Below are positions 7,775 to 59,114 of a stretch of 64,000 bases of DNA, in pieces; positions within the stretch are counted from its first letter, which is position 1, and the number at the start of each line of letters is the position of its first letter. The stretch comes from Liolophura sinensis (lineage: Eukaryota; Mollusca; Polyplacophora; Chitonida; Chitonidae). Where the stretch lies: positions 49,754,046-49,818,045 of the forward strand of contig NC_088302.1 in NCBI RefSeq assembly GCF_032854445.1, read 5' to 3'. Made by a program: the position numbers and the translations under genes. Under the pieces are notes generated by a model. That model was not told where the DNA came from. It did no database searches and worked only from the letters and a program-made list of their open reading frames with translations.

Positions 7775-22809
<15,035 letters not shown>

Positions 22810-30172: not shown

Positions 30173-30405
30173 TTAGGCTAAATATACAGAATGGATGGGC
30201 TTTTGTCTATCCGGAGATCCGGATGGATTGGGCAGGAATGGTATGTATCTGGACATTGGACAGGCCGACAGCCATCGGCCCACCAAAGGTAGCTCATAGA
30301 TAGACAGGTCACGAGACACGGCTTGCCCTAAAGTTGTCTCCCTTGGAACTGAATCTTCTTCCAAGTCTATTGTCAGTGTTGCAGATCGCTTTTCCCGACT
30401 AGTTC
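30173..30405 (-). CDS. SLC23-A exon 12: cytoplasmic tail and stop
   Basis: 233 nt, acceptor aactttcag, stop TAA at 30,173. Begins TSREKRSATLTIDLEEDSV and carries DLSIYELPLVGRWL and SRYIPFLPNP, the tail motif of animal SLC23 (YDFP.G...R..F..YIP). An AATAAA (reverse strand, 30,159-30,164) follows the stop by eight bases. Confidence 0.92.
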
Positions 30406-33400
30406 CTGAAAGTTCACACCAAACGACAGTCAGTTTAACTTCTTGAATACGTGCTTTATAAGCGTCGTGTGGGATACATTATCGATGCATAGGCCTCTAT
30501 AGGTCTGGACCGCTGTTGTCTTTGGTCTTTATGACGTTAAACCCAAAGTATTTGTTCACTCACTCATCCTTCGTCCTTAATCCAGACATGTCGCATTACA
30601 GGCAATCGTATATGCTATTAAATCGTTGGTCGTATATATGGACGGTGCAGGTCAATTGATCAGCCGACTTTTCCTAGAAGAACACATTTGCTGTTCTCTG
30701 GGGCGCCGATTCAACAAAGCCGGTGTTGACTGAGATTAAGACTTAGCGGCACAGACCTGGTGAGGTACCGGGTACTACGTTTTCTGCACCTATACACTTA
30801 ATTCTGCCCCCTGCTTTGTACATTAAATAGAGTACAAGTAGGTAAATATCTGAGACTAGGACATTGCAATACACACCTGGTACAATTGTGTACACCAGGA
30901 CTTATCTACTCTGAACAAATACATACAATTTTGCTCCCTTCCTTGTATTCTAAATACAGAGTGCAAAGTAGGTAAACAACGGGGACTGGGATATTGTAGC
31001 ACAAACCTGGTACAGTTGTGTCCAGGAAAATAGCCACAAGTACGCCCACCACCAGAGGTGTCCCCAAGAACGCCATCAGCGTGCTATCGGCTTCACGGGA
31101 GCCTGTAAAGTATATTAACTTGGTCTAAGTTACACAAATGCGGTCTGAAAACTTTATTACCCAAACTACCCTATAGGACATCTGAAAAGTGAATAAATAC
31201 GTCATTTCCTGTCACGGATATGCTGCAAAATTTGACAGGTGGACATAAGCATTTGCTTAAAGGAGAAGACTCTCTTTGAATAAAGTATTCACCATCACAA
31301 CGGTCATTTTCATGCAGATTCCAAATATGGCTTTCAGGATTCTATTTACAGCGAATAAAATGCAAAAATCAGTATGTTGTACTGTGGACTTTGTGTCAGC
31401 TGACATCAGCTGAAACAAATCCGTGACGTTACTGTGCTTCAGCTTGTTCAATGTCGTCCAAAAAGTCTGCAATCTTTGACTATTGCTTTAACTGCCATGT
31501 GACATATGTTATCTGTTGCCATGGTTATAATCAACTAACCTTACAAAGGAAGAGTGTCTCGAACTCCATCCTAGCATCGAAAAGCCGATATACCAATTTG
31601 TTTTAAGTTAAGGTCTGTGGTTAACTTTAAGTTTGTTCATTAACGCATCTTGGTGAGAATCGTTATCTAATTTTAAGCGTGGTTTAGGGATGTTGATGTA
31701 GACCAACCACATACCTGTATTAAAAGTACCCGGATGTTCTTTTAACCACGTAGGAATCACAGTTCCGGCCATGATGGCGATGCCTAGAACGCCTTGACTG
31801 CGAGTTGACCATAGGTCAATCTGCTTTAGATTTGATAACGCTGCGCCGACGAGTAGAGCGAGGGATATGAACACTGGGCCTGCGAGAACTGGTTTGGGAA
31901 TGGCGACGAAGACAGCACCTAATTTCCCACAGATGCCCATTAGGATCAGGAAGATACCGGATATGATGAACGCCCGTCTGCTGGGAACCTGGAGGAGAAA
32001 TTACAGATTTTTTAGTGAGAGTGATCTCCCTTGATCGCGAAACCGTCCATAAATGGATGTAGAAACGACACACTACAAAAGGTACGTCGTTAGACCGAGA
32101 TTAATCTGGAATGAAAGACTAGGGTGGATGTAGGAGGCTACCGAAATAAACAAAAATAGGGTATTGTTTAGCAAGATCAGCTTTTTACGATTTTTTTACT
32201 TACAGGTAATTTTATACCTAATTGTACCTTTCGCTAAAATTAAACATGGGATCTTTGGTTAGGACTTCATTGTTTATTTACTACACTTATACGAATAGAG
32301 CGAGCGTTGTAGTGGGAAGAAACCAGGAGAAACCTACGACCAATAGGAAGATGGACTTGAGTTTAATGACTGCATTGATGAGAGGCTTGTGAGCCAATGT
32401 GCTGCGCTACCACGCTAACCACTCTACTACGTAGACCGCGTTTGAGCTTGCTGCATTCTTAATTGTAGCTAGCAAAATAATACCATGTGGGCCTATCTAG
32501 AATGCATCTTTCACAAGGCCTTTGTGTCTGCCCGTCCGCACAAAGACGCGTATAGAAACCGTGTGGGTTTTTTTCCTGGCTCTCAATCTTACCAATCGCC
32601 GATGAGGATGGACTGATGTATATACCTTGGTTATTCCAATGATGCCTATCATGTTGCTGAAGGAGGTAGTGACGTAGCCCGCTCCCATGACCCCAGCCAG
32701 AAGACTCCCCAGCCCCTCCACCATGAGGCCGCGATTAATAGCGTGTGGGGGAGGGACAGGCACTCGGCTCTGTACCGTCGTCTGTACGTAGTCGCCAATA
32801 GATTCCAGCATGCTGCCGAAAATCGCCACGGTCAGTGTAACAACAAAGGAGATCTTTAAAGACGGATCCCTGTACTGACCTGTGGACGCAAGACAATAAA
32901 TAAGGTCTTGTCCAGGTTTATTTATTTATTTGATTTGAATTGTTGTTTGTACGCCGTACTCAAGAATATTTTCGATATAGTCGGAGAAAACCGGGCAGAG
33001 CCCGGGGGAAACCCACGACCATCAGCAAGTCGCTGCTAGATCTTTCTGTCCAGATATGATAGTCTGTTTAATTTGGGAGAGGGGAGACCAGAACACCATG
33101 TAACGATAGGGAACATTTTAGCCTATCATCAGATGTGAAGTTCTGTACACGCTAACTCCCCAGTATAGAATACTTACAGCACAGAGAGCAAACCGAGAGC
33201 CGTGAGCAGTTTATGTAAATGTTTAAATAGTAGTAAATTACACGTCCTCTAGCACCATGGCTTAAGCCGAATTAGGTAAAGAATTGGGCAGTGATGTTAA
33301 TTGCAGTTTATTACACGTCACTGGTCTACAATTATTCAAAAATGCTGTCTTGTCATCAGATTTAATGTACAAACACATTAAAACAATGAATAACGCGATT

Positions 33401-36400
33401 ATGGCAGTTGAAACATATATGTATATGTTTCACTCGACATTCAGAGTAATTCTTACTGTCTTATCAAAGTGTAAACTGCACATGAGGAAACCTAGTACCT
33501 AGTTATGAGGTAAACTGCACACGAGGAAACCTAGTATCGACATATATAGCCAGTGCAGGGGCAAAAAGTAAAACATTGAAAACGTTACTGGCTATTGAGA
33601 GTAACAAGAGTAGGAGTTGCCCTTACAATACCACGCGATTCAGACATATCGTGGAATACAGCACATCAGCCAACAATGTGGTATGGAATGACACAAGGCC
33701 GCCCTGGTTTGGGATTTTCCTGGAATGTATCGCAGTAGTTAAGAAGCACATAGTTCCACTCTGGCTTAGAACTTTTTTAACAGTTTTCACGGGTTTGAAA
33801 ACACACAGTGCGGCGCTGGCGTTGTATCTTGCCCCACAGTTTTGTTTGGTCAAAAAGAACACAGTGCCGGATTTGTTTTTGATATTAATGAACTACTCCG
33901 CTTGGATGAAAACGACTTAGTACCTTGGGGTCAAGGATTTGTTTTGGAAGGATAATGAAATGACATGACCATATTAATATCGTCTATGTTACATACATAT
34001 GATCTTGTCACCGTAATACGTCTTATCGTTGCACTGTGACGTTATACCTTAATCATTCATTCATTGGTATGCTGGTTTAGAAGTGCCATAGCAGCATTGT
34101 ACAACTGTCTACGTAGTAATAGTGGGCATGTTAAGCTTCACTCTCATATATATATCCAACCAGCTCAACAAGTCGGGCAAAAAGCAGAGATTGGTCGATT
34201 CGATGGCGGATTACTGTGATTAAAGGAGTGTTATTTCTGCTTCATTGAGGCAGCACTAAAAAAAAAAGCAAGGTGAATTGATAAAGACTGGGATAGTCTG
34301 AATTGCTTTACTAAATTATGAAAATATTGCAGTGAATTTAAACCGATAGTTTCGTTAGCGTATTCGGAAACAAAATATTTCTGTCCCTTCCACTTTGCCT
34401 GGTGTGACGTTACCCACGAACACATGGCATCATGAATCGCTGACGTATATCCACAAATGACGCAGCCCTTTCAAACGCTCTTGACGTCATCCCAGCATAA
34501 ATGCCTTACTCAACGTCATATCTGCCTGATTCGATGTCATACAGGGAATATTATCAACTCATACCAGGAAAATTTTACGGACATAGCTAAAGATTTTGTT
34601 TTTCAGGGAATCTTCAGTTATATGGGTTAAATAGTGTTTTTCATCAAAATCCTATTGAAACATAGTGTGAGGCCTACTCCGTTGGATTTCTTTCATATCA
34701 TTGTAATATTTCTACCCAATTTGCATTCTGATCAGAGTGGCACTTTAATACTGTTTGTTGTGCTCATTATGTTTCGACTGATTTTTCACCTACCTGGGTT
34801 AGGTAACCTGAAAATGGTCGCTTGTCTTATAAGACAATTAATTATTATTAGAGCTTGTCTTATTGACTCCGCAGCGAAGTCTGTTCTGGCCTGGTATTGT
34901 AACACACTTCTGTCTTCTGGAAACACTCCACACACGGTGAAAATGTAGGATATGATCCAGCCAATTAGCACAGACAACAATACCTGAAAAAAGAAGTATA
35001 CATGATGTGATATGTATACATGGAAATGCATGTATGATTTTTAGTCAGCACAGGCAGTAAAACCAGAGTAGCTGCGACAGTGTGATGTCAAATGGCCACA
35101 CGTAAGCGGTGAAATCCAGCCTCTTGTCAATTAACATCAGGGTTTTCTTCCAACTGTTTATGTAAATGCGCGTATAGTATCAACGTATACGTCCCCATGT
35201 ACCATTATGGCTGAAGTATATAAAGGTTACACATAAATGCAGTGACGATAATAACAATGTATTAGATGTCACTAGTGTAGCTTACTTTTACAATAGCCTC
35301 TATGACCGAGAAGAACTTTAGTCGCAGGTTTTATTCTCTAAATTTCGATTTAATTTCGTCACCACTGCTTAGCTGATAAGATGAAATCAGTGATCACAGT
35401 GATCATCAGTGATTTCCATCTAACCAGATACTATTCGCCACACTCTTTTCTCTGCTTAGAACGTTTAATAATTCACTAAATGATGTATCCATGGTAATCT
35501 TACCACCATAGCCATTGCCTTATCGTAATCGTAGCACTAGCTTAGTGAGGCGGTACACTGTCCAGTCTAGATACAACCATAGTATTTATTTATTTGATTG
35601 GTGTTTTACGCCGTACTCAAGAATATTTCACTTATACGACGGCGGCCAGCATTATGGTGGGTGGAAACCGGGCAGAGCCCGGGGGAAACCCACGACCATC
35701 CGCAGGTTGCTGACAGACCTTCCCACGTACGACCACAGAGGAAGCCAGCATGAGCTGGACTTGAACACAGCGACCGCATTGGTGATAGACTCCTTGGTCA
35801 TTACGCTGCGCTAGCACGCTAACCAATTGAGCCACGGAGGCCCCCATATACAACCATAGTAAAGAAATAGTAAATTACAATGCTTACTTCTGTATGCCTA
35901 TGCGACGTTTAAATGATCTACTTACTGGGAAGAGTTCGAACAGCGGGAAGGGCACAAATTTGAATCCACCTCGCCTGCTCCATGTGGGCAATGGTACGTT
36001 ATATCTGTTCACGTACTGAGATAAAATGATGATGACGACGATGTTCCTGTCAATGAGAAAGTTACAATTGTGAACATAAAATATGAATATCATTCGTCAG
36101 TTGTTGTATTTTGAGATTTAAATTTCCTATCGGCTCAACGCTTGTTTTTAGGGATAAACTATAGGCCTACATGTTTAGATAGGAATAAAATCCGAGTTTA
36201 TTCAAAGGCAATTGTATGAAAATGGTATTAAACATCAATCGTGTCAAAGACAAACATCTTACATGCACGACACTCCCCAATGGATTTCAGCCAAGGTAGA
36301 TATAAATCCCTGCGCGGAGATTCCAAGGAGCAGAATGAGACATGTGATGGAAATCGGTCCCATGACCCTCAGCAACAACCCGCCCAGGCCCAAGGCGCCA

Positions 36401-39400
36401 ACCAGAATCTCTACACCGGAAGCCACCATGAGAGAGCCATGGACCTGTGTGAAATGCCAAACGAAAAATAAGCACGAAAAGCCAAAATCCATTTGATCAG
36501 AATATTCTGTACATTTATCCTCGTGGATTCAATCCTATTATAGATAACAATGTAGGTCAGTCAAGCTTGTTTTGTCTTCAGTCACGTGATTGATATAGGT
36601 CCTACCCCGGTAATTACCCAAAGTCAGGTGGATAAATGAAATGCCTTATTGCAAATTATTTGAATGTTATAACACAAAAATCCAAAGAATAAAACCGGTG
36701 TGATACTTAGAAAATGGTCACACATACCAAAGCTACACATGGTGAATGATCATTGGTGTATTACGTTGTAGTCAGGAATGAAACTCGTCTAAAAAATGAG
36801 AAGACTTCTAAGATTGTAGAAAGAGAATTCCTGAATAAGTTGGCTCTTACCTTACTCCACTGTGTCATCCAAGGCTTGTCTGACATCGACACTGAGTTGT
36901 TGGCCGACAGAGTAAAGTTGGCTTCTGTGAGCAGAAATCGAATTGATATTATATGGTAAGAACCAGTTAAAGTATATAGACCTGCGGATGAGGGATACAT
37001 CGTGTGTTCAGGTCGGTTTATATGTATCAAATGCCAAGGGACATTTGATAAAGTTTTGTTAGTGAACAGCTGCCCGGGCATCCTGTGAGGCTACACGACT
37101 TATCAGCGGTTTGCCATGTATACTCGTGAGGTCCTTGTTGGCGTACTCGCGTAATATAATTACGATGTCCACAGCATACAGAGTAAAAACAGGGTTCAGT
37201 TTCATAAAGATTTTGTACATGCACGATAATCACATATACAGGACAATGGTACGGTAAAAATGACGTACAAAATATGGTATGACAAATGCACGATAAAAAA
37301 AATGTCGTACGCCGCTTTGTGAAACTGGAGTCTTAGCAGCAACGACAGTGTGATAGGTAGCAAATGGTCACGAGTAACCCGTAAAATACGGCCTCTTGTC
37401 AATTTAAAGTTTCATTCTAAGTGTTCATGTAAATTCATAAATAGAAGCAAATTACACGCCCCCTAGCACCATGGCTTAAGTAGAATTGGGTAAATGCAGT
37501 GGTGTTAACTGCAATTTATTAAATTTCACTGGTCTAGAATTACTCAAAATGGAGTGTTGTCATCACATTTAACATTCACTAACACTGAAACAATATAAAA
37601 GGACCAGGCCTCCTAAAAGGTATTGCTCCCACAATAGTTAATCTACCCTTGACCAAAGAGTTCGAGTGCTCGAATCGAGCTCGAGTTGACTCGGCTGTGG
37701 CTTCAAGTCAGAAGGTTTGCCAGCTATCTGCCGAAATTCCGTGGTTTTTCCTCCAGCTCTGTGGATTCGGCCACCCATAAACCTGCCCGACCGACTGATT
37801 ATATGTAAGTAAAATATCCCTGAACACAGGCTGAAACAGGAATCAAATAAATAGACAAATCAATTGAAATTATGAGCGGGCCAGTATAGCTAGTGTTCTC
37901 CTCTTGCTCACCTGAGAATTCTGACGTCCGGCACCCCCAGGCCGGGTCGCTAGCCGCGTTAAGAAAGATCAGTATGGACAGAATGGACGGACCTTGAAAT
38001 ATGGGCAGTCTGGTAATTACACAACAGCCGGTTAGAGAGTAGAATACGCTAGTCGTGCATAAAGGGTACAAAACTGTAATTTAGTTGAGTCTCAGAGGCA
38101 GTTTAGGTCTAATGGACTAGATACCCATTCTTTGCATAGCAATGTTCATAGAATATATTTGTGAGATAAACGAGCTTATTGTTTACCTGTCAGTGAATAT
38201 AGCTTCAGTATATATATTAGTCAAGGAAGTCAAACCAAATTCTTTCCTTGTCGCTTGTACGTACATATATACTTTACATGGTTATCAAAAAAGAATCTTC
38301 TCTAAACGGTGAGACATTAAAATCTCCTCAACTATGTCATAGACAACAATCAGCCATACAAGCAAATCACATATTCAGTATACGCTACCGAACATTATTA
38401 CAGTCACTGTGTAGATGTCAAGGAATGCAACGGCTTCCCACCTCAATAATACAGTGTATCCCATAATCAAATAAAAAGTAAGCAATATAACATGAACAGA
38501 ATTTACAAAGTTTTCTGCATGGATGAGCGTGTGGCTTTGGGAGTGGCGCATAGGGCTGTATTTACCTGGAACCGAGTAGTGTTTGAAGTATAGTAGAGAC
38601 ACCGCACATGACAGTTGTGGTAGAGTACAGCGACGCGGCGAACTCCTGGTCGGAACATATGAACTCTGCTATGACAACAGCCATGTTGACACAGGAGAAG
38701 ATGTTACACATTGCGATCTGTAAACAAACGAGAAATGACGATTCAGGAACCTTAGAGATCTACAAATGGACATCTCATTTGTCATTACAAGTTGGCTGTG
38801 ATATTGTGATATAACGATTTTGATATCTGGATTTGTTGTCACAGCCCAGAACACCTTATTAGTTAAATAGCGTTATAACTTACCTTCAGCCTGCCAACGA
38901 AAAAAGTCGGCGGAGTATATTTAATATCTAAATTTATAACTTCAGCCATTTAATTTGCATATCCAAGAACATTAAACAATAAGGAATGTGTTCTCTCATC
39001 GTGCCATAACGGTGTGATAATTATACAACACCGAACTTCATCACTTCATGACGTTGATTCTTGCACGCAAACGTTTGTGTGGGTGGAGCATTCGTTGTGC
39101 GCATGGTGATTAGGTGACTTGGACGTCATCGGTTCCTTATTAGCTCACAAACTCGTTTCTGCACACGCTATACAAAGGAATCTGACAGACAGTACGGCTT
39201 TCAGTTTCCTTTCTGAGAACTTCCACTTTTGAGAAAGGACGTATGTTCGAGTAAATAAGTAATGTATTTAAACTTGAACCATACACGTGCGTTTCAGTCT
39301 ATTCTATGAGTCGGGCGACTGAAATACGGACTATGAAATATTCGACCGTGTGCAGGCAGTTACAATCTTCATGTATGATCACACAAATCACAGCCGGTTT

Positions 39401-41319
39401 GAGAGATGTCGGCCTCGTATATTCCCACCAAAGCCATGAGGACGATAAGGGAATACAGATGTCTAGAATTCCCTGTCCGAAGCTTGGATCGAACATACAC
39501 CGCATGTGTCCTGGCAATTCAAAGACAACCATCTTGACCAATCGACCGATACACGCACATAAGACACTTTAAATACAATACGGAAACAACACCTTCTGCA
39601 GAATCCGCAACTGTACCTGAAAACCGAATAACGTGGCCAGGTATATGGGTGGGTTGTCGTTCACGTCATAATAGAGGCCCGAGGGTTTGGCCCGGGTGGG
39701 CGCAGAGCGATCATAAAGATCACCTTTGACCTTATTCTTATCCGAAACTGTCTTCTTGTCCAACCTTCGATCATCCAGTTGATTCCCTTGTTCAGCGTCC
39801 GAATTCTTCGGCAGCCTGCCCAGAACACCCTCTCCAATTTTGTCCGCATCACTCTGGTTAGAATGTAAAATTCACACTTTGGTTCTTTTAAGGAAACGGA
39901 AAGTTTACGATTTCACCTTATGCGTTTAAGATTTGTTTCATAATTTCCATGCTTGTAAGTAAATAACTCGCAAGCCTAACGACAACTGTGATCGAAAAGG
40001 CTCTTAATCAATAGATGAATGCACAAAGGAGTAACACAGGGTATGAATGCACAAAGGAGTAAGACAGTGTATGAATGCACAAAGGCGTAAGGCAGAGTAT
40101 GTATGCACGAAGGAGTAAGGCAGAGTATTAATGCACAAAGGAGTAAGGCAGAGTATGAATGCACAAAGGAGTAAGGCAGAGTATGAATGCACAAAGGAGT
40201 AAGGCAGTGTATGAATGCACAAAGGAGTAAGGCAGCGTATGAATGCACAAAAGAGTAAGGCAGTGTATGAAAGCACGAAGGAGTAAGGCAGAGTATGAAT
40301 GCACGAAGGATAAACACAGTGCATGAATGCACAAAGGAATAAGGCAGAGTATGTATGCACGAAGGAGTAAGGCAGGGTATAAATGCACATATGAGTAAGG
40401 CAGAGTATGAATGCACAAAAGAGTAAGGCAGAGTATGAATGCACAAAGGAGTAAGGCAGAGCATGAATGCACAAAGGAAAAACACAGTGCATGAATGCAC
40501 AAAGGAGTAAGACAGTGTATGAAAGCACAAAGGAGTAAGGCAGAGTATGAACGCACAAAGGAGTAAGGTAGAGTATGAAAGCACAAAAGAGTAAGGCAGA
40601 GTATGAATGCACAAAGGAGTAAGGCAGAGTATGAATGCACAAAGGAATAAGGCAGTGTATGAAAGCACAAAGGAGTAAGGCAGAGTATGAATGCACGAAG
40701 GTTAACACAGTGCATGAATGCACAAAGGAATAAGGCAGAGTATGTATTCACGAAGGAGTAAGGCAGGGTATAAATGCACAATGGAGTAAGGCAGAGTATG
40801 AATGCACAAAGGAGTAAGGCAGAGTATGAATGCACAAAGGAGTGAGACAGTGTATGAATGCACAAAGGAGTAAGACAGTGTATGAAAGCACAAAGGAGTG
40901 AGACAGTGTATGAAAGCACAAAGGAGTGAGACAGTGTATGAATGCACAAAGGATAAACACAATGTATGAATGCACATAGGAGTAAGGCAGAGTATGAATG
41001 CACATAGGAGTAAGGCAGAGTATGAATGCACAATGGAGTAAGGCAGAGTATGAATGCACAAAGGAGTCACATAGAGCATGAATACACAAAATGGGCTAAC
41101 ACAGTGCACGAATGCACAATAGGCTAACACATTGTACTAATTAGCAGAAAGTATGAATGCACATTGAGTAACAAACTGTATGATAAATGCATAGGGCATA
41201 AGACGACATCGGCAATATGGAGGACCAGAGGATTAGTAACCAAATATAAGTATAAGTACACAAGTATAAGTATAAGTCAATGTTATGGTGCTAAATGCAG
41301 AACTTACCTGATAATACAT
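30173..41319 (-). CDS. SLC23 family (nucleobase-ascorbate) transporter, paralogue A
   Basis: Multi-pass plasma-membrane transporter of the NAT/SLC23 family (sodium-ascorbate or nucleobase symporters). Twelve exons on the reverse strand: 41308-41319, 39617-39853, 38566-38717, 37912-38009, 36851-36924, 36263-36444, 35926-36046, 34794-34983, 32626-32879, 31715-31988, 31007-31102 and 30173-30405. They total 1923 nt, or 640 residues plus TAA, close to the usual 600-650. The N-terminus is hydrophilic; a glycosylation-prone loop has NFT and NNS (about 168-176). TM8 has ESIGDY (381-386), followed by PPPHAINRG and the NAT-signature region ending GIIGITK (434-440). The tail has IYELPLVGRW..RYIPFLP. Unusual: QI replaces the QH motif (83-84), NM replaces the usual P/Q/E-N of the signature (431-432), and there is an 11-residue insertion (about 337-347). 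The first exon is tentative. Substrate cannot be assigned. Confidence 0.92.
30740..31030. repeat. Partly duplicated segment carrying the end of SLC23-A exon 11
   Basis: The stretch ggtaaatatctgagactagg..acctggtacaattgtgtaca (30,840-30,900) resembles ggtaaacaacggggactggg..acctggtacagttgtgtcca (30,971-31,023), the latter spanning the exon 11 donor. A third, weaker copy is near 30,750. Local duplication of an exon edge, about 120-130 bp apart. Confidence 0.65.
31007..31102 (-). CDS. SLC23-A exon 11: last membrane segment
   Basis: 96 nt, acceptor ctttacag, donor CCAG|gtttgt. SREADSTLMAFLGTPLVVGV, then LVAIFLDTTVPG, matching the family's last helix ending LDNTVPG. Confidence 0.92.
31715..31988 (-). 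CDS. SLC23-A exon 10: TM9-TM12 region
   Basis: 274 nt, acceptor ctcctccag, donor ACAG|gtatgt. Encodes VPSRRAFIISGIFLILMG, KLGAVFVAIPKPVLAGPVF, GAALSNLKQIDLWSTRSQGV and PTWLKEHPGTFNTG, collinear with the family's K..ALFASLP.P.LGG, LSNLQFVDMNSSRN and PG.INTG motifs. Confidence 0.95.
32285..32442 (-). mobile_element. SINE copy, heavily decayed
   Basis: Reverse copy in an SLC23-A intron: cacttatacgaa, gtagtgggaagaaaccagga, gaaacctacgacca, then gatggacttgagtt and gctgcgctaccacgctaacc. Retains the tRNA-like head but lost much of the middle. Confidence 0.7.
32626..32879 (-). CDS. SLC23-A exon 9: TM8 and NAT signature
   Basis: 254 nt, acceptor gtccacag, donor CCAAG|gtatat. Holds SMLESIGDYVQTT, VPPPHAINRG, EGLGSLLAGVMGAGYVTTS and FSNMIGIIGITK. 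The Glu/Asp of ESIGDY and the Thr-Lys of the signature are kept; the normally invariant Asn of the signature is Met. Confidence 0.95.
32918..33048 (-). mobile_element. SINE copy, truncated
   Basis: Reverse copy: tttatttatttatttgattt tail, acgccgtactcaagaatatt, then ccgggcagagcccgggggaa and acccacgaccatcagcaagt. Ends without the tRNA-like head; the ttatacgacggc..gcattatgg piece is mostly deleted. Confidence 0.8.
33175..33400. repeat. Dispersed repeat family R2, copy 1
   Basis: Shares taaattacacgtcctctagc, accatggcttaagc, gaattgggcagtg and cgtcactggtctacaattat with copies at 35,050, 37,330 and 58,610. Non-coding; no terminal repeats identified. Confidence 0.75.
33466..33542. repeat. Short tandem duplication (~35 bp x2)
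   Basis: gtaaactgcacatgaggaaa and gtaaactgcacacgaggaaa, each followed by cctagta, lie 35 nt apart. Confidence 0.8.
34794..34983 (-). CDS. SLC23-A exon 8, with 33-nt insertion
   Basis: 190 nt against 157 in paralogue B. Encodes VLLSVLIGWIISYIFTVCGV, FPEDRSVLQYQARTDFA, then SIRQA, an 11-residue extra piece (LIIINCLIRQA), and TIFRLPNP. The insertion is flanked by 11-bp direct repeats at 34,820 and 34,853 and keeps the frame. Donor CCCAG|gtaggt. Confidence 0.9.
35050..35285. repeat. Dispersed repeat family R2, copy 2
   Basis: Contains gcgacagtgtgatgtcaaat, ggccacacgtaagcggtgaa, cagcctcttgtcaatt and agggttttcttccaactgt in the same order as the copies at 37,330 and 58,610. In the SLC23-A intron between exons 7 and 8. 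Confidence 0.75.
35571..35861 (-). mobile_element. Full-length tRNA-SINE with 14-bp target-site duplication
   Basis: Reverse-oriented. Read on the - strand: tRNA-like head with A box (tggctcaattggttagcgtg) and B box (gttcaagtcc), central domain (cgtgggtttcccccgggctc), conserved 3' domain (tgaaatattcttgagtacgg) and an aataaataaa tail. Flanked by identical atacaaccatagta at 35,571 and 35,848. The family resembles mollusc tRNA SINEs with a conserved central domain; exact name unverified. Confidence 0.95.
35926..36046 (-). CDS. SLC23-A exon 7
   Basis: 121 nt, acceptor tgacag, donor CCA|gtaagt. Encodes NIVVIIILSQYVNRYNVPLP, then the basic WSRRGGFKFVPFPLFELFP, equivalent to the SQYL segment and following cytoplasmic loop. 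Confidence 0.92.
36263..36444 (-). CDS. SLC23-A exon 6
   Basis: 182 nt, acceptor ttcacacag, donor AT|gtaag (phase 2). VHGSLMVASGVEILVGALG, then GGLLLRVMGPISITCLILLL and EIHWGVSCM, matching the family's QGAI.V.S..E...GL.G and GPLTVTP..SLIGLS regions. Confidence 0.92.
36851..36924 (-). CDS. SLC23-A exon 5: extracellular loop
   Basis: 74 nt, acceptor gctcacag, donor AAG|gtaaga. Encodes (E)ANFTLSANNSVSMSDKPW and MTQWSK, with two N-glycosylation sequons (NFT, NNS) at the loop that is glycosylated in SVCT proteins. Confidence 0.85.
37197..37332. mobile_element. MITE-like hairpin element
   Basis: Inverted ends cagtttcataaag and ctttgtgaaactg with an inner acatgcacgataa/atgcacgataaa repeat; about 136 bp in the SLC23-A intron between exons 4 and 5. 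Similar ends to the element at 13,196. Confidence 0.6.
37326..37612. repeat. Dispersed repeat family R2, copy 3
   Basis: The longest uninterrupted copy: gcaacgacagtgtgat, ggcctcttgtcaattt, ttcatgtaaattcataaata, caaattacacgccccctagc, accatggcttaagtagaatt, cactggtctagaattactca and gttgtcatcacatttaa. Confidence 0.8.
37912..38009 (-). CDS. SLC23-A exon 4
   Basis: 98 nt, acceptor attaccag, donor CTCAG|gtgag. Encodes LPIFQGPSILSILIFLNA, the conserved RLP.FQ. membrane segment, then the start of the large extracellular loop (PAWGCRTSEFS). Confidence 0.88.
38566..38717 (-). CDS. SLC23-A exon 3: TM1-TM2
   Basis: 152 nt, acceptor tttacag, donor CCAG|gtaaat (phase 2). Starts IAMCNIFSCVNMAVVIAEF where most family members read HYLTM, and ends TILQTLLGSR, matching the family's TLLQT..G.R. 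Confidence 0.87.
39306..39560 (-). mobile_element. Second tRNA-derived SINE-like element, copy 1
   Basis: Read on the - strand: tatcggtcgattggtcaaga (A-box-like), ggtgtatgttcgatccaagc (B box gttcgatcc), then ggctttggtgggaatatacg and aggccgaca. Not the main SINE. Shares parts with 54,778-54,920. In the SLC23-A intron between exons 2 and 3. Confidence 0.6.
39617..39853 (-). CDS. SLC23-A exon 2: hydrophilic N-terminus into TM1
   Basis: 237 nt, acceptor ttctaaccag, donor CAG|gtacag. Begins SDADKIGEG; a charged stretch leads to SGLYYDVNDNPPIYLATLFGFQ (written here as two parts: SGLYYDVNDNPP, IYLATLFGFQ). The PP.YL...FGFQ end matches the NAT TM1 entry. Same length as exon 2 of paralogue B. Confidence 0.85.
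40010..41175. repeat. 28-bp minisatellite in SLC23-A intron 1 (about 40 copies)
   Basis: Unit gtatgaatgcacaaaggagt followed by aaggcaga; variants change gcac(a/g)aagg and gag(t/)a. Because 28 is not a multiple of three and no frame of the - strand contains a stop, long repetitive open frames (up to 301 codons) appear in all three reverse frames. They overlap one another and are best read as repeat artefacts. Confidence 0.96.
41308..41319 (-). CDS. SLC23-A exon 1, candidate start (MYYQ)
   Basis: Four codons from an ATG to a perfect CAG|gtaagt donor in phase 0, as exon 2 needs. No other start is evident between it and exon 2, and a 28-bp minisatellite lies in the intron. Weak on its own; another upstream start is possible. 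Confidence 0.4.
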
Positions 41320-41959
41320 ACTTAACGTCCTAGTTTCGCTGTTTAAGAAAATCAGTCTGTCTTCCCATGCATACTTATTTCTCTTCGTGTCGAGGGATAC
41401 CTCTCAAGCCAGCTATCGTCTCTTGGAAAGACCTTGGTTTGCTGAACATGTGTACAAGCATTAAGTCTTAGCATGTCCTCTGTAACGTACATATATTACC
41501 CTGAATATAATGTAAGCAAACTCACTGAAGTCAGACCTGTAGTGGCCGAATCGTATACTGATTTAGTCTAAATAACACGTTACGTCTGACCTTTGACCCC
41601 TCATTGGTTGGTCAGGTTAAACCTGAGCAGTAATCGGAATCGTCGTTTTAATGCACAAATTTATGCGTAAACAGTCTCCTTCAATCACCGAAATTTTGTG
41701 GTAGGGTTTAGGGAAAGATCGAGGCTTTTTAATCTGACTTTATTAAAAGGAGATCGGTATTGTAAGCAAACTTAAAAACAGCCTTAATTCAAAGTGTTAT
41801 GTCCGTTTCGATGATTTACAAATGGCGATCACGGTTATGCTTGTGCATATTTTCAAATGTGAAACGGAGAGCAACTCAAGCGCCGATTGGTATCGTCGGA
41901 TTATAATATAATTCGTGTGTTTAAATATGGCAGACTTATTCCTGGCACCATGGGCCTAT

Positions 41960-42085
41960 ATACAGTTTCATCATATACTCTCTAGATACTCCGGTGACAC
42001 GTAACCTCTGAATATACGACTTCTTATCAGTTTGTCTCAGTCAGGGTTTTATTTTAACTGTTCATGTTCTAACACCCACCATCAG
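41960..42085. repeat. Dispersed repeat family R2, partial copy 4
   Basis: ggtgacacgtaacc..ttatcagtttgtctcagtcagggttttattttaactgttcatg keeps the middle of R2 (agggttttatt.taactgttcatg). Decayed. Confidence 0.55.
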
Positions 42086-42929
42086 TTCATTTCGAATTCT
42101 AGTCATTATCTCATTTGCTAACACAAGATGGCGAGCTCAACAATCAGGCAGTATTTTATGCACATCACCTTCCAAAGAGACGAAAGGTGTTCGTGCGTAT
42201 GCATTTAATCTGTATACGGACATTAAATCAACGTTTTTTTTTTTATTATTATATTTTTATATGTTTTACAGGACAATTGTCCTTACCTTTGACAGACGAG
42301 GTGCGGGTTCAAACAAGGTCAAGGACGGTGAATTTGTAGATTTACTGTTTGTGAGACCTTGTTGACAAGAAGCGGCCAACGATTCGCATGTAGCTATTTG
42401 TGTTCTACACACTTGTGTTCTACAAATATGTTATGTATATCTCTGGGTCACATGTGAGAAAGTTTATCAGTACCTTGCCGAAGGCCACTGGTTTACTGCG
42501 ATTACTCATAAAAATGAGAAGCTTCGGAAACTATTCCTAAGTATTCCGTTAAGCAACAATCAAATAAATCATCCTTTGTAATAATCCTCAATGCCAGGCC
42601 CATTTGAGATGGGGATGGAGGGGGTCGAGTTCCATTTTAGTTCGCAAATACAGTTTTTAGCATATTTTAATTATTTTAATTATTACAGGCTCCGTTGATA
42701 TCTGTTTATATACTTTTTTTGGTCTCACAAGCGTTTAGAACACCCCACACTTCTGGAAAACTTACCACCCATGGACCGTCGTCTATAATTAACTGGAATA
42801 GTCGTCCCGCTAGCACTTGGAATGCAGGACATTCTAACTTTCGGAATATTCAATGTTTCTGTGTGTGTTTTTTTATTTTCCGGAACACTTTTAATGAATT
42901 CGTTGTGTGTTTTACAACCATTTGAAAGA

Positions 42930-43026
42930 TAGGAAGCTAGCATGAGCTGAACTTGAACTCTGCGACCACAATGGTGAGAGGCTAGCCTATTCTGCTGCGC
43001 TTGTAAACTAACCAATCGGCCGCACA
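42930..43026 (-). mobile_element. SINE head fragment
   Basis: aggaagctagcatgagctga, acttgaactctgcgacc and taaactaaccaatcggccgc match the tRNA-like head of the main SINE in reverse orientation. The rest is absent. Confidence 0.75.
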
Positions 43027-44673
43027 AACATTAGATGTCTTTTGTTCATATATACTAGTATAAACTTCTAATTAATAGAATCGTCGCTAATTGCTTGACA
43101 ATGCAGATAACAGAGCCCGGGGCCCATGTTTACCAAACGTCTTAAGACTTAAGTCAGAAATTCAAGCACAGCTACAATTAAAGCATTTTGCTCTAGTAAG
43201 TGTAAAATTTGTACTTTGATGCTTTACAACAGAACAATGTGTCAACCACAATTTAAGTCCTTTCCTGTTCTGAGTTTGGCTTAAATCTTAAGTTACTTGA
43301 CAAATACGAGGCAAGGATATAATACTGGCCACAGTACGTTTACACTTTGGCAAAATGCTCTAAAATTCAATTTAGCCTATGATTGCCTATATTGCCCACA
43401 GCAAAAGTTATTCATTTACCACACGGATAAGAATCAGACTTTTCTAACTAACACATTTAATTCAGTAGAAATATGAAGGCTTGTGATGGACGGGAATTTG
43501 AATTCTATTAAAATGTTGGCTAACTTATCTTACAACATGGACATTTGCGAATATCGTGAAAGTTAACAGGCGAAATGACAATATGGTCGTACACTATCTC
43601 ATGGAAAACGATTTGCGGGCATTCTGGGACATTGTACACTATTGAATGGGTAGATTAACGTGACAGATCGATTAAGAGATAGTTAACATACTTATTGATA
43701 TGTGCGGATGTGTATGATTCAATTGAATGCACATGTACACTGTTACAAGATGATTCCAAATAGAAAATGGGCGTATAGTAACCTGGTTTGAACATTGCAT
43801 TAATATCCCATACCAAACTCCCATGCATCAAATGATACAAAAAGCAAGAACGAAAGGATCAGACCATTGTGTGATTTAAACATATATTCATGGAGTAGAA
43901 CCTTAAAAGAAAAGGATATTTCACTTAAGTTTAAAAGCGTTCACAACAGAGAAATCACAGTTCAAAGTAAGCAAAATCGCATACATTGAGAAATCGAATG
44001 TACCGTCACGTTATCAGTTTTGATCGATCAGACGCAAGTTATAACCTGAGAACGCAATCGTTTCCGCTTACGTCAACCAAACTCAGGTTTGTCATTTAAC
44101 CACACGAGTGACGCGACATTGTGTTTCCGGTTTCTCTAATATGGTGCATCACATGCCCTCTTACGAATTCCTGATTAAAAGTTAATTTTTTTGAGTTACC
44201 AAGCACATCAGAACAGAAGTGCTGTGGGCTCTTCCTAAATAACTCAGTTAACACTATTTGTTGTCTTTTCTTTTGAGTAACATTGAAAATCGCCTGTACA
44301 GGTTGGCCCTTTTATATTGTCAGTTCAGGACGAATGTTTTTATATTGAACAGTTCAATAAAAACACATCTTCTTTCAACTAGTTTGCGTCATTCTGAACA
44401 TATAAATCTCCTTGTGAGTCGCTGCGAACTGCATGTAATTGTCTGCCATTATGTTCTTTTGAGGCAATGTAAAATCTAGCATTTAGTCACTTTAGTGTTT
44501 GATCAATTGTTCACGGACACCCAAAAGAGGATAAACCATTACAGACCAGAAAACGCAGAACCTTCACACAAGAGTTGCAAAACTGGAAGAGCGGGATAAA
44601 GGCGTTCTTGACTTTGATATCGCCGCGAATGAGGCTATGAAATAAAGTCTGTATTATCATGAAGGATGATAAT

Positions 44674-44921
44674 CTAGTCCTTGATTTCTCTTATTGTCTC
44701 TAGTGTTATCGTGTTGATCGGCTTAAGTCTTGCCGCCGTTGCGCATGGATCGGGTAGGAATGGTACATATCTGGCCAGACGAAGACCTGACAGCCATCGG
44801 CCCACCAATGGTATCTCATAGATTGACATATCCTGAGACACTGTTCGTCCAACAGTTACGTCCCCTGGCTGAGTAGTGTCGTCAGCATCCATGTCAACAG
44901 ATGCTTGTTTACGGCTGGTTC
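44674..44921 (-). CDS. SLC23-B exon 12: cytoplasmic tail and stop
   Basis: 248 nt, acceptor ctgattgtag, stop TAG at 44,674. TSRKQASVDMDADDTTQPGD, then DMSIYEIPLVGRWLSG and ARYVPFLPDP. Five codons longer than A's last exon. No AATAAA seen close downstream. Confidence 0.92.
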
Positions 44922-47900
44922 CTACAATCAGTTTGAAGGATAACATGCTATGAACAACAACACAACACTACACTTGTTGACCAATGTATTATATAACAAA
45001 ACACACCGTCTACCGGTACTGTTCAAAATGTTGACTAATAGAAACCTTGGCTAAGTTATTATTGAGAGCTTTGACATCGTGAATAAGATGTAGTGAATGC
45101 TGTCGGTGAGTAACAACCCAGTCACAGGCATCAAGCATATTTTTATCTCCTGTGACATTGCCATGAACATATCCTCAGAGGTAGATATAGCCCAAGAAAG
45201 AAAGCTTAAAGCTTGCCATGAACATTTCTTCTGGGGTAGATATAGTCGTATGAACAATTCTTACCAGAATTGTCTCCAAAGATAACCGAAAACATGGCGT
45301 GCAAGTTTCTTTAGTATTGACAGAATTCCTCATTAATAAAATTTTTCATTGCATTTTTTCAAAAGGACAACATACCTGGTATAGTAACGTCCAGAAACAT
45401 GGCCACTATTACACCCACAACCAGGGGCATTCCCAAAAATGCGGTTATTGTCTGATCTAATTCCTCAGAGCCTGTGGTGTACAAAATCACAAATGGTGAA
45501 AATTCGTGGCATGTAAATAACATATGATCAAACCCATCCGTGGTGTGCAGTAAAATGGCATATGATCAAACCCATCTATGGTGTGCATATGATTAAAGCT
45601 GTGACAGCTTAGTGCGTAACGGACATTTGTTCAAATGTTAATGATTTGTAAATGATAAATAATATGAGCCCGTGGTGTGTACATGACATGTTATCAAATT
45701 CCTCAGATTCGATTCGGAACATTCCTTCAAAAAGAAACCACCAAATACCTAAGAAACTATATAAAGTAAGAAATACAGGAGATATCAACAGCACTGAAAA
45801 ATTCCGAAAAAAACTCCATAAATGTTCTAGACGTAAAATGTAATGTGACATATGATCGAAGTCGTCTAGCTGAGTCTGTGGCCTACAATTCACTTTTGAC
45901 CAAAATGTTTCCCCTCTTTTCAAAAGAGAGAAAGTTTTTAATTTAAATGAGTTTGACGCCAAAAGCGTATAAGTGTTTTTGGATGTCTGAACTTGGATGA
46001 TTGGTAGTAAATGAATGAATTCCGTTTTTTAAAATACACCTAGAATCAATCAATTAACCAATTGCACACCTGTTTTAAAAGTTCCCGGATGTTGTTGTAA
46101 CCAAGTGGGAAAGACTGTTCCAGCCATGATGGCGATGCCCAGAACACCTTGACTCCGACTTGACCACAAGTCTACTGCCTTTAGATTGGACAAGGCCGCG
46201 CCAACGAGAAGAGAGATGGCAATGAATATAGGACCAACGAGAACAGGTTTGGGAATGGCGACAAAGACAGCGCCTAATTTGCCGCACACGCCCATCAGGA
46301 TCATGATGAGACCAGCGATGTTAAACACACGCCTGCTGGCGACCTAGATAAGCAAGTGAAAGAGATTACAACTGCCATTATAGTCGAACTGTTAGCTGGG
46401 GAAGAAAGCAATCCGCCAAATATACAAACGTATGTAGTGAAAGCACGCCCTCGTTAAAACTGACCCACGCCCTTATTTGGTAATGGTTGTCTAAACATAA
46501 ATGCCACTTATTAACTTACATATACTTAACATTGCCCAAATAATCATTAGATGAGAGATCCATGTCGACCACTTATCACCACCACTCCCAAGGCCCAGAG
46601 AACAATGAAAATAGGGGGAAATGGCCTGTCTGAGAATGAGATTTGATCAATGTCACGAGTGACCAAGCGATTCAAGAAAAATCATCTGTATTCAGGGCTG
46701 CTATATATATTTCAATACATAAATTCATTACTTTTTCATGACATTTCAATGATCAAGTCATACAATAATTCATGATTTAATCGCGCAAAATGACAAAACC
46801 TGAAAGCCAGTTTTGAAAGTTATTTTTATTGCATATTGGCATGGCCTCCACATCTCCCCTCCAGTCCACCCTCACACATTGTGCACACTTGTTAACAATA
46901 TAATTCGTTTACAAGTAGAGTACGTAGTGGTAAGACATCGCACAAGTATGAATGTCGATATTCAGAAACAAAAATCCATGACTTTTTCATGACAATTCAT
47001 GACTGGAAATTTATTCATGACTATTCAGGTTTTTTCATGATTGTTATAGCCTTGTTTATGACTAGGCCAAGGGCTGCTCAAATCATCCACCACCCCATCC
47101 CTAAAGCTAGCAGTTTCTTTGTTGGTCGTATCTCGAAAGGATCTATAAATACTTCATACTCAATATCAATGTATCACGAAGAAAGATAGTTAGTATAATA
47201 CCCATCCGACAACAAACAAGAAAAATATAATTAGACGTACAGCAAAGAGAGTAAAAGCAGAGCAGTGACGACAGTATGATCGCTGTTATCTTAAATACCT
47301 CAGTCGGGGTTTTACTTTCCTCTTTACTCTTTCTTGGGGATTTAGGCCGTACTCAAGTATGTTTTACTTATACGACGGCGGCCGGTAGTATGGTGGGAAG
47401 AAACCAGGCAGAGCCCGGGCAAACCCACGATCATCCGCAGATTGCGCCAGACCTCCCAAAGTACGGCTGGAGAGGAAGCCAGTATGAAGTGGACTTGAAC
47501 TCGGAGCGACCGCATTTGTGGGAGGTTCCTGTGTCATTGCGCCGCGCTGGCGTGCTAACCAACTCGGCCACCTGGGGTTTTATTCTAGCTGTCCATGTAA
47601 AATCATGTAGACAAATAACTTGCTGACATAGGATTGCTCGAAGGATGTCAACATGACCAAAATCAAATAACTTTATTTGATCCCAAATCCTGTCTTGCAA
47701 CTACTCCTATACATAAATTTGTGGATTAGGAAGCCCAGGAAAACCGCTATTTACCTTGGTGATGCCGATCATACCGATGGTGTTGCTGTAGGACGTGGTA
47801 GCGTGGCCGGCGCCCATCGCCCCCGAGAGAAAACTTCCCAATCCTTCCATGATGATGCCTCGGTTGATGGCGTGTGGGGGTGGAACAGCAACGCGGCTGG

Positions 47901-50900
47901 GTCCGGTCGTCTGGACATAGTCACCCACAGACTCCAGAATACTGGCCAAAACCACGACAGCGATCATGACGAAGTACGACAACTTTATAGACGGGGCTCC
48001 ATACTGACCTGCAGTAAAAATGATTGATTGATTGGTAGAGCTTGGTTTTACTTCGTTTTCCGCGTTGTGTTTTTGTCACGCCACAAAAGTTTTTCTTACA
48101 AATGCCATCAAACAAAGAGTGATGGATCGGGTCGACAAGTTTTGGTGTTGACCTCTAAATACTAATCGTGAAAACGAGGAAGTCAACACCATTTTGTGTA
48201 TGACCTTTTGTTAGAATGTAATATAACAGTTTTTTTTCATTCATTTACTTGGTTCTTGTTTAACATACTGAAGCATTTTCCACGTCTATGGTGTCGGTCA
48301 GTTTTATTGTTTAAGTAAATCGCAGTACCCAAATTCCAAATTTGACGTGATCTTCAACGACCGTTAGCGGCCATGTGAGCCTAGTCGAACTCTTATTGTC
48401 AAGAAGGCCTTACGTTTTCTCTTATCGACATTCAGGTTCACCGCAGCATTTCATGTTATCAAATGGTTTACCACCGACCTGGATATGGGACGGTAAATAC
48501 TGGAGCGTTCCGTACTGAATCGATGGCAAAATCTGTCCTGGCTTGATACTGCAGAACACTACTGTCATCCGGGAAAAGTCCACAGACGGTGAAGATATAG
48601 GAGATAACCCAACCAATGATCACAGAGAGTAACACCTGGAATAAGGTCAAACATCGGCATATCAGACATTAGTTAATGGAAAATATGTCATAGGAGAGTT
48701 TTGAGTTGAAGCTATTCTGTCGTTACAAGTAAAAACAGTTCAGTTGTGTGATGTAAAGTAAAGTGTGACTTGAGTAAAGTTTTAGGCAAACTTTTTTTTT
48801 TTACATTAACTTACCGATCATCTGTCTCACCCTGTTCCAGAGGCACAAATACACATATTTCCTTTAGGAACTTCTCAAGTTCACAAAAGTTCAGCTCCTC
48901 AATTTTCTCCGTTCGTCAATTTTGAATTACTTTTAGTGAAACTATGTTCAGAGGCACGTGTTTTAGTAAATGTGATAAAAAGTAGCTAACATTTTTGACA
49001 GGTCACATTATACAGCTGGACTTTTTCTAATTTTATCGATAAAACAGTTCGAACTCAAAACTTCACTATTGGTTCGTTGTGATTTAATAGCTTACGTCTC
49101 ACGTTTTTTATGATTTTTTAAACATAAGTTATATAACATACGTAATCCATTACAAATGTTATTTGTCGGACTGTTTGTGTTCCTTCATTGACCACCTTGT
49201 TTTGGTTCGGGAAAACAAATTGTATAACTGTACTTGTAATGTATGACAACAACAGAACTTTTCGTCTGGGGTTGAAATTTCTGGTTGCTCTTAACAAAAG
49301 GTGGGGAATATAAATTAATAGACGTCCATTTCCTTCCATAACTATGCTAGTTTCATGGGAAAATTTGGGGAAATTTATTTTTTTATTTGACTCGTGTTTA
49401 ATGCAATATATATGCTCAGAATAATTCATTTATATGAAGGCAGGCAGTCAGGTTTATGGGTAGACAGGACAGGTGATAAATTGTAAAAAAATTAATTAAT
49501 TTCATGTGAAATCTCCAAGACGAAGATGCTGTTTCACAGTTGCTTTAATAGTACGATAATATTAGCAATAAAATTGCGTGTGGAGTGTACATGGACAAAT
49601 AAATCAAGTACTTGCCGGGAATAGTTCAAACAACGGAAAGGGCACAAATTTGAATCCACCTCGCCTGCTCCATGTGGGCATTGGTACGTTATACCTGTTC
49701 ACGTACTGAGATATAATGATGATGATGACGATGTTTCTGTGAAGAGAGGGATAGTAGGCTATATATAGAACTAAAAAAATATATGGCCTATTTACCGTTC
49801 AAAAGCAGCATATTTCTTGTTGCTTATACGGAAACATGGTCGTCACATGACCTGTAATACAGCCAGTCAGATTTTTTATACGCCTGCATCTAGACAATCG
49901 ATTGTTTGTATGACCAAGTTTCATCGGCTGCAATCCCATTCAATTTGCCTCTGCGCTTTACAGTTCATGCATATGGACGATAAGCCCGTCAAATGACTAC
50001 TGCTCCCATAATATCCCTAGTTTATCATTTGATTGCGCTTGTCTGTTTTGTTTATGTATTTGTAAACATTATACTGCTTTTGTGTCCCACAATTATTTGA
50101 TATATACAAACATAATTAGACTTATTGCTATTTTTTCCTTTAATACTTCAATGCTATCAATATAATCAACATATGAAAGTCATCATGCCACATTTTATTT
50201 ATTTATTTATTTTACTGGTGTTTTATGCCGTACTCAAGAATATTTCACGTATACGATGATTGCTGGTAGACCTCCCCACGTTCCGGAGAGGAAACCAGCA
50301 TGAGTTGGACTTGAACTCACAGCAACCGCACTGGTGATAGGCTCCGAGGTCATTGCGCCGTGTTGGCGTGCTAACTCCCTCGGACACGGAGGTCCCTGCT
50401 GCCATATTTTAAATAACATCAGTGAAAAGACGCGAACTGTAAAGACCTCAAGATATTTCCTGTGATAAACATTGTATGAGTTTGATAATCTCTACAGGAC
50501 TATGTATTTTTTGTCCAAAAACTAAGTTAGGACATTCGAAACATTTATGACCATTTTGGTTTGGAATCCGGTCATAAGGGTCATTAGTGGGTCTAAGTTC
50601 AACCTAGGAAGAGCATACCGAGGACAGCTTGCTGAGCGGATTCATGCCATTTCATTTGGATATGTGAATTTAAATTTGAACAGTGCAGAGAGTGACATGC
50701 AATAAAATAACGACTTTCTTGAATGAATAATATCGGTTGAGCACATTGTTGACTGTGTACATGTGTGATCCATTCCACAAAATGTTTTTTAACCCTTGCA
50801 AGATGTGGGTCATCGTAATCATGTCAGATATACTCCTTTTCCCAGGTCTTTCCAAAATGGTTGTCTTTCATCAGAAAAACCCCAAGCAAAAAAATGATTG

Positions 50901-58609: not shown

Positions 58610-58845
58610 GCTGGTGTAATGTATAGTTGACATTGGTTTACACGTAACCGGTGAAATGCAGCCTTTTGACAATTTACCTCTGGGTTTTATTCGAACTGCT
58701 CATTTAAATGTTTAAATCGTAGCAAATCACACGCCCCCTAATATCATGGTTTAAGCAGAAGTGTAAGTGTATACAATGTAGTTAATTGATCAAACGTCAC
58801 TGGTCTAGAATTACTGAAAGCGCTGCGTTGTCATCACATTAATTA
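58610..58845. repeat. Dispersed repeat family R2, copy 6
   Basis: acacgtaaccggtgaaatgc, agccttttgacaatttacct, aatcacacgccccctaatat, catggtttaagcagaagtgt and cgtcactggtctagaattac. A SINE is inserted at its end; R2-like sequence (catcacgtttaat) resumes after it, and a further partial R2 follows at 59,213-59,290. Confidence 0.8.
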
Positions 58846-59114
58846 TTTATTTTTTTATTTGATTGGTGTTTTATGCCGTACTCAAGAATATTTCACTTAT
58901 ACGACGGCGGCCAGCATTATGGTGGGAGGAAATCGGGCACAGCCCGGGGGAAACCCACGACCATCCGCAGGTTTGCTGGTAGACCTTCCCACGTACGGAA
59001 GCCAGCATGAGCTGGACTTGAACTCACCGCGGCCGCAGCAAGAGGCTCCTGGGTCATTACGCTGCGCTAACGCGCTAACCAACTGAGCCACGGAGGCCGC
59101 ACCATCACGTTTAA
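58832..59114 (-). mobile_element. tRNA-SINE, near full length, nested in R2
   Basis: Reverse copy with A box (gctcagttggttagcgcgtt), B box (gttcaagtcc), central domain and 3' domain, plus an A-rich tail. catcacattaat before and catcacgtttaat after are a likely imperfect target-site duplication. Confidence 0.9.

Follow-up and report, generated by a model that had tools for sequence, protein, structure and literature searches.

The genome of the chiton Liolophura sinensis, whose assembly was published as Liolophura japonica (PMC11068029) before the animal was renamed in a correction (PMC12441733), carries a tandem pair of minus-strand SLC23 genes whose predicted products have lost part of the motif set that defines canonical members of the NAT family. 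The genes, here called A (~30.2-39.9 kb) and B (~44.7-55.7 kb), lie in the 64,000-nucleotide stretch of DNA analyzed here (C8:49754046-49818045), hereafter the window, to which all plain coordinates refer. With confidence about evenly balanced, we read A and B as tandem duplicates in a non-canonical SLC23 subfamily that is functional, probably coupled to Na+, and altered at its substrate site. The features that carry this case, located in transmembrane segments (TM) by alignment and numbered by residue according to human SVCT1, are as follows.

38715..39619, minus strand: TM1 pair of A, Gln (39619-39617) and Ile (38717-38715), split by an intron; Gln-His in SVCT1
55105..55439, minus strand: TM1 pair of B, Gln (55439-55437) and Ile (55107-55105), split by an intron; Gln-His in SVCT1
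37982..37999, minus strand: TM3 loop of A, FQGPSI, with Pro at Ser110 and Ile at Phe112 in the SVCT1 alignment
53112..53129, minus strand: TM3 loop of B, FQGPSI, with Pro at Ser110 and Ile at Phe112 in the SVCT1 alignment
32788..32805, minus strand: TM8 motif of A, ESIGDY, Glu and Asp kept in the SVCT1 alignment
47917..47934, minus strand: TM8 motif of B, ESVGDY, Glu and Asp kept in the SVCT1 alignment
32626..32655, minus strand: altered TM10 signature of A, NMIGIIGITK
47755..47784, minus strand: altered TM10 signature of B, NTIGMIGITK

At position 51 both proteins have Ile where SVCT1 has His, and in both genes a phase-0 intron interrupts TM1 between FGFQ and this Ile. Position 384 is Asn in A and B, Pro in SVCT1 and Gln or Glu in nucleobase NATs, and the Asn of SVCT1 at 385 is replaced by Met in A and by Thr in B. 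An earlier sequence-only reading of this DNA had reported QI in TM1, N-M-I-G or N-T-I-G followed by ....T-K in TM10, and retention of ESIGDY/ESVGDY, all of which an exon-by-exon rebuild of the genes confirmed. Its headline statement that the hallmark residues are lacking applies to His51, Asn385 and the Gln, Glu or Pro of position 384; the TM1 Gln, the TM10 Gly, Thr and Lys, and TM8 are kept. The interval it gave (32626-48008) does not include the TM1 exons of B. Residues unchanged in both proteins are Gln50, Glu334, Asp338, Ser383, Gly387, Thr392 and Lys393. Changes beyond those first reported, again shared by A and B, are Cys55 to Asn, Thr59 to Cys, Ser110 to Pro and Phe112 to Ile, and Ser382 has become Phe (A) or Tyr (B), an aromatic residue being the usual nucleobase-type state at this position.

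Matches to PF00860 (Xan_ur_permease) of 210.1 bits for B and 202.6 bits for A, against a curated cut-off of 27, establish SLC23 membership in the broad sense, and mouse SVCT1 aligns near full-length with B (residues 51-565, E 7.8e-95). Against the three motifs that mark a canonical NAT (PMC5972032), A and B have Gln-Ile in place of Gln-His in TM1, keep the canonical Glu and Asp of TM8 (ESIGD in A, ESVGD in B), and depart from the TM10 pattern [QEP]-N-x-G-x4-T-[GRK] at its first two positions, with its Gly, Thr and Lys retained. The SSSP motif that precedes the signature Asn in the SVCT1/SVCT2 ascorbate clade reads SFSN in A and SYSN in B, and the SVCT3-type state, in which the TM1 motif is kept and that of TM8 is lacking, is the opposite of what A and B present. 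As judged from their predicted proteins, A and B are thus SLC23 members by homology that fail the three-motif definition of a canonical NAT. An error of signature register or alignment was considered as a source of this pattern and rejected, since SVCT1 aligns gap-free over TM8-TM10.

In the chiton genome (609,464,459 bases in 632 contigs), a PF00860 profile gave 56 exon matches. A search with the signature exon of B (E up to 0.001) returned 22, each in a neighborhood that PF00860 had already matched, and further copies were rejected on this result; the 22 did not include a broken gene at C7:45.04 Mb. Apart from C8 and C11, ten gene regions (20 blocks) were read, together with parts of the C11 genes. 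Three TM1 exons read from C11 have His, Gln and Gln at position 51 (the preceding Gln falling on an unread exon), and four signature exons read there give ENIG three times and QNIG once. The motif states of the ten other genes are these.

C1_77.50: position 51 Gln, TM8 ESVGDY, TM10 QNVG
C6_73.13: position 51 Gln, TM8 ESIGDY, TM10 GNIG
C7_55.67: position 51 Ile, TM8 ESLGDY, TM10 EMIS
C7_55.72: position 51 Val, TM8 ESVGDY, TM10 GMIS
C7_55.76: position 51 Leu, TM8 ESLGDY, TM10 EMIS
C6_52.01: position 51 Ile, TM8 DSVADY, TM10 GLIG
Three C12 genes (16.89, 19.23 and 19.25 Mb): position 51 Ile, Val and Val, TM8 DSLADY, TM10 SVTG (within ISVTG)
C7_45.04: position 51 Ala, TM8 DSVADY, signature exon broken

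In a tree built without the columns of the TM1 pair, TM8 and TM10, with SVCT1, C11_13.30, C1_77.50 and C6_73.13 as the remaining rows, A, B and eight others form one clade (support 100/99). The same ten genes group again at 100/99 when the tree is rooted with six prokaryote rows and the TM3 columns are also removed. Two alternative positions of C6_73.13, beside the other eight and beside A and B, are rejected (p-AU 0.00397 and 0.00447), in a test whose groups were chosen after the first tree had been seen and for which the tool warned of long branches. Support for A and B as the first branch inside the clade is only 89/91.

Within the ten-gene clade the signature Asn is absent from all nine readable signatures, position 51 is Ile, Val, Leu or Ala in ten of ten (never His or Gln), and position 110 is Pro in ten of ten; outside the clade, in the same genome, all six signature exons read keep the Asn. 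In the C12 genes and C6_52.01, four readable sister genes more extreme than A and B, all three NAT motifs are altered. The member at C7:45.04 Mb has stops within the signature exon and within exon 10. These comparisons support a shift that is older than the A/B duplication and common to the 10-gene clade, so that the ancestral change first proposed from the two genes' shared residues would extend well beyond them. The suggestion of an N-x-I-G clade was borne out less fully: within the clade an Asn at 384 belongs to A and B alone, and the pair is nested in a wider clade without the Asn at 385, whose other signatures are EMIS, GMIS, EMIS, GLIG and SVTG (three times). One genome therefore holds the signature forms ENIG, QNIG, QNVG, GNIG, EMIS, GMIS, NMIG, NTIG, GLIG and SVTG.

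The residues in question were also compared with a set of 82 relatives. Of these, 80 come from prokaryote genome contigs, as the best of 306 there, and two are both of those found in viral contigs, the latter partial. The set is biased toward canonical members, as its search patterns include ES[IV]GDY and its query alignment was led by a canonical chiton protein. Within this set, position 385 is Asn and position 384 Glu in 82 of 82, and among the 80 relatives covering TM1, 79 have His and one has Gln at position 51, with TM3 positions 109-112 reading GGTF in 79 and GGSF in one. Measured against these alignments, the motif loss in A and B is more than chance.

The models of the two genes and their candidate 5' exons are as follows.

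30173..39853, minus strand: gene A, 11 mapped coding exons, from splice sites, phases, frame and the PF00860 match
A exons 1-6 (high-low), minus strand: 39853-39617, 38717-38566, 38009-37912, 36924-36851, 36444-36263, 36046-35926
A exons 7-11 (high-low), minus strand: 34983-34794, 32879-32626, 31988-31715, 31102-31007, 30405-30173 (stop)
44674..55682, minus strand: gene B, 11 mapped coding exons, from splice sites, phases, frame and the PF00860 match
B exons 1-6 (high-low), minus strand: 55682-55437, 55107-54956, 53139-53045, 52686-52610, 51630-51449, 49736-49616 (GC donor)
B exons 7-11 (high-low), minus strand: 48635-48479, 48008-47755, 46343-46070, 45471-45376, 44921-44674 (stop)
41308..41319, minus strand: candidate 5' exon of A, MYYQ followed by GTAAGT, from a mechanical search of ATG-to-donor stretches
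57246..57260, minus strand: candidate 5' exon of B, MQRER followed by GTAAGT, from the same search

In each gene the 11 exons join in frame with no internal stops, the 10 introns between them have equal phases in A and B, and all acceptors are AG and all donors GT, with the single exception of the GC donor after B exon 6. The 5' start exons of both genes are uncertain. The first mapped exon of A (39853-39617) contains no ATG, which puts the start of A further 5', and that of B may alternatively begin at 55673 if it is preceded by an upstream exon. Adding MYYQ and MQRER, which are mechanical candidates only, reproduces exactly the residue numbers first given for these proteins (QI at 83-84 in A and 84-85 in B; signature at 431-440 and 421-430). 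Relative to B, exon 7 of A (34794-34983) is longer by 11 residues, inserted in frame in the TM7-TM8 loop. Each protein has two sequons in the TM3-TM4 loop region (165 and 171 in A, 167 and 173 in B); SVCT1 is glycosylated in this region, and we count the sequons in favor of our reading of A and B. Two minisatellites lie in or next to the mapped genes, one with a 28-base unit in ~38 copies (40015-41090), located between the first mapped exon of A and its candidate 5' exon and traversed by long minus-strand reading frames, and one with a 46-base unit in ~12 copies (54236-54762) in the second intron of B.

The two genes are under purifying selection. A and B are identical at 417 of 622 aligned residues, with dN 0.220, dS 0.995 and dN/dS ~0.22 (Nei-Gojobori), and by the same method the core region gives dN 0.167 and dS 1.046. 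A pseudogene reading of A and B was rejected on the splice checks and dN/dS. Alternative splicing that restores QH, put forward in the sequence-only reading as grounds for abandoning its claim, found no support, and alternative exons restoring QH or EN were rejected: the window contains no second TM1-like or signature-like exon, and queries of the window with the human and chiton canonical TM1, the canonical signature and the B exons recovered nothing at E <0.1 beyond the exons already mapped in A and B.

Available structural and mutational studies suggest how the substitutions may be related. In a model of the transporter UapA, Q85, H86, N409 and T416 form a single hydrogen-bond network with contacts H86-N409 and Q85-T416 (PMC3405029). 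A and B retain the Gln-Thr pair equivalent to Q85-T416 and lack the His-Asn pair; since these two residues are bonded to each other in the model, their losses may be one event. At positions 51-385 the pairs read Ile-Met in A, Ile-Thr in B, Ile-Met, Val-Met and Leu-Met in the C7 genes, Ile-Leu in C6_52.01, and Ile-Val, Val-Val and Val-Val in the C12 genes, and wherever position 51 was read as Gln the Asn is kept (C1_77.50, C6_73.13, C11_13.30 and one prokaryote). We infer a coupled replacement of a polar TM1-TM10 contact (His-Asn) by a mostly apolar one, in which Ile-Met (A) and Ile-Thr (B) would take the place of His-Asn next to the retained Gln-Thr pair. A, B and the three C7_55 genes retain every side chain that binds Na1 in SVCT1, namely Glu334, Asp338 and Ser383 (PMC11219872; see also PMC10011568). 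In C6_52.01 and the C12 genes Glu334 has become Asp, and Ser383 is missing from the C12 genes as well. A and B would then still operate as Na+-coupled, elevator-type transporters with a substrate site remodeled at 51, 55, 59, 110, 112, 384 and 385. The aromatic residue at 382 and the amide at 384 might favor a heterocyclic, nucleobase-like solute rather than ascorbate; this is the weakest step, and a guess. The proposal of the sequence-only reading that ascorbate and nucleobases may not be handled by A and B as is usual in the family is plausible, and the description of UapA N409 as irreplaceable (PMC3405029) speaks for it.

More tentatively, and with less confidence than we place in the reading of A and B themselves, the ten genes may represent an animal SLC23 subfamily that forms a graded series, from TM8 intact to all three motifs altered, that arose by removal of the polar TM1 His/TM10 Asn pair held to be necessary for transport, and that now carries a solute class new to the family.

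Several observations weigh against A and B as functional, remodeled transporters. UapA N409 is termed irreplaceable, which predicts loss of transport where the Asn is gone (PMC3405029), and the human SVCT1 Na2 ligands Ser110 and Phe112 are not kept. The co-loss of His and Asn is a single event in one genome, and one clade member, at C7:45.04 Mb, is broken. Moreover, of 158 columns that hardly vary among the prokaryote relatives, A and B both depart from 72, and their branch in the tree is long (1.06 changes per column), so that the motif losses may belong to a general loosening of the sequence.

The alternative that survives best, although we consider it unlikely, is that the motifs changed without a change of substrate, with nucleobases, alone or together with ascorbate, still transported by A and B through compensation elsewhere in the core domain. 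The retained TM8 Glu and Asp, Ser383, Gly387, Thr392, Lys393 and aromatic 382 are consistent with this, as is the Asn at 384, which is still an amide, and substitutions in the UapA Q85/H86/N409/T416 network give cryosensitivity, so some of them stay active (PMC3405029). The same study describes UapA Q408 and E356 as absolutely necessary, Q408E as losing most activity, and Q85, E356, D388 and N409 as irreplaceable, and in A and B pocket positions in TM1 and TM3 are altered too.

It is more doubtful still that A and B are transport-dead or regulatory paralogues, serving as a sensor, a scaffold or a dominant-negative SLC23 dimer partner and selected for a non-transport role. The Asn they have lost is the one termed irreplaceable in UapA (PMC3405029), the sister C12 genes and C6_52.01 have all three motifs altered, and NAT proteins function as dimers (PMC11219872, PMC5972032). 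However, A, B and the three C7_55 genes retain the Na1 side chains and TM8, features that a transport-dead protein would have no need to preserve, and constraint between A and B is strongest in the core (dN 0.167 against 0.220 overall).

We regard as very improbable the possibility that A and B are ascorbate transporters whose contact set differs from that of SVCT1 and SVCT2. Duque et al. argue that some SSSP-less invertebrate SVCT-like proteins must carry ascorbate (PMC9233358), and the Na1 side chains are kept. Against this stand the changes Ser382 to Phe or Tyr, Pro384 to Asn, Thr59 to Cys, Ser110 to Pro and Phe112 to Ile, and the presence in the genome of an ALO-family gene, such that ascorbate uptake may not be needed. 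This gene, at C6:55.81 Mb, has the domain of L-gulonolactone oxidase and is weak context for the substrate of A and B; an exon-by-exon search of the whole genome for uricase (PF01014) gave no match at E up to 0.001. In mouse SVCT1, alanine changes at C62, S117, T387, S389 and P391 profoundly reduce uptake, and C62A and P391A are reported with wild-type-like Km and Vmax (PMC10011568). A and B both differ at four of these five positions, a result rejected as proof of a new substrate because four of the five also depart from SVCT1 in C11_13.30, a canonical protein of the chiton, and in the relatives from prokaryotes. The SSSP ascorbate motif, too, is generally absent from the non-vertebrate sequences surveyed by Duque et al. 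(PMC9233358). In alignment, the ascorbate-contact differences indicate that A and B are not SVCT1-like and do not separate them from canonical relatives; the positions that set them apart from those relatives are 51, 110, 384 and 385.

That A and B are artefacts, be it wrong exons, unexpressed copies or decaying pseudogenes, is barely credible despite their uncertain 5' start exons and the stops in two exons of one clade member, given ten introns in each gene with matching phases and GT-AG boundaries bar one GC donor, a dN/dS of ~0.2, a window without an alternative TM1 or signature exon, and the recurrence of these losses in the seven further members of the clade whose signature can be read.

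Set beside known systems, A and B as altered-site transporters share with the Na+-ascorbate transporter SVCT1/SLC23A1 (PDB 7ytw, 8jew) the TM8 motif (ESIGDY in A, ESVGDY in B) and the Na1 side chains, and differ from it in QH to QI, SSSPN to SFSNM (A) or SYSNT (B), and the changes at 59, 110 and 112 given above. With nucleobase-type NATs (UapA, rSNBT1/SVCT4 and the chiton C11 genes with ENIG or QNIG) they share TM8, the aromatic 382, Ser383, Gly387 and Thr392; unlike these, they lack His or Gln at 51, Asn at 385 and Gln or Glu at 384. Kourkoulou et al. (2018) describe QH as nearly absolute, with Gln-Met/Ile as rare versions, and the TM10 motif as present in all NATs, and they class SVCT3 and fungal UapD-like proteins as non-canonical (PMC5972032). 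Vertebrate SVCT3/SLC23A3, reported in that study to carry neither ascorbate nor nucleobases in its human form, resembles A and B by description as an SLC23 branch with a lost hallmark motif, yet it retains the TM1 motif without that of TM8, whereas A and B keep TM8 and have lost the TM1 His and TM10 Asn. The UapD-like NATs of fungi are likewise set beside A and B by description only (PMC5972032). Expanded SLC23 families are known from other molluscs, with up to ten bivalve SVCT-like genes (Lop1-Lop10) of unclear function, and the text of Duque et al. (2022) as consulted makes no mention of loss of the signature Asn or TM1 His (PMC9233358). In the literature searched we recognized no Asn-lacking animal SLC23 proteins; the supplements of PMC5972032 and PMC9233358 lay outside that search and may already show such a clade.

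Other long minisatellite arrays in the window, with units of ~25-56 bases, occupy 4-1243, 6191-7150, 10058-10795 and 11434-12398, and exons of an Ion_trans channel (PF00520), presumably TRP-like by eye, lie on the plus strand at 12404-14042. A short interspersed repeat recurs at 32984-33047, 47361-47450, 58790-59086 and elsewhere, with a tail that reads like TTGAGTACGGCGTAAAACACC...AATAAATAAA, and is presumably of a kind familiar from mollusc genomes. There were no Rfam matches in the window.

To annotate genes such as A and B by name as transporters of vitamin C or nucleobases would be unsafe. The motif forms present in this one genome make up a transitional series of the sort called for by the NAT study of 2018 (PMC5972032). 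If A and B do transport, the Asn termed irreplaceable in UapA, together with its His partner, would be losable in a living animal lineage while the gene persists, and the role of the hallmark motif in substrate choice would be separable from its role in gating.

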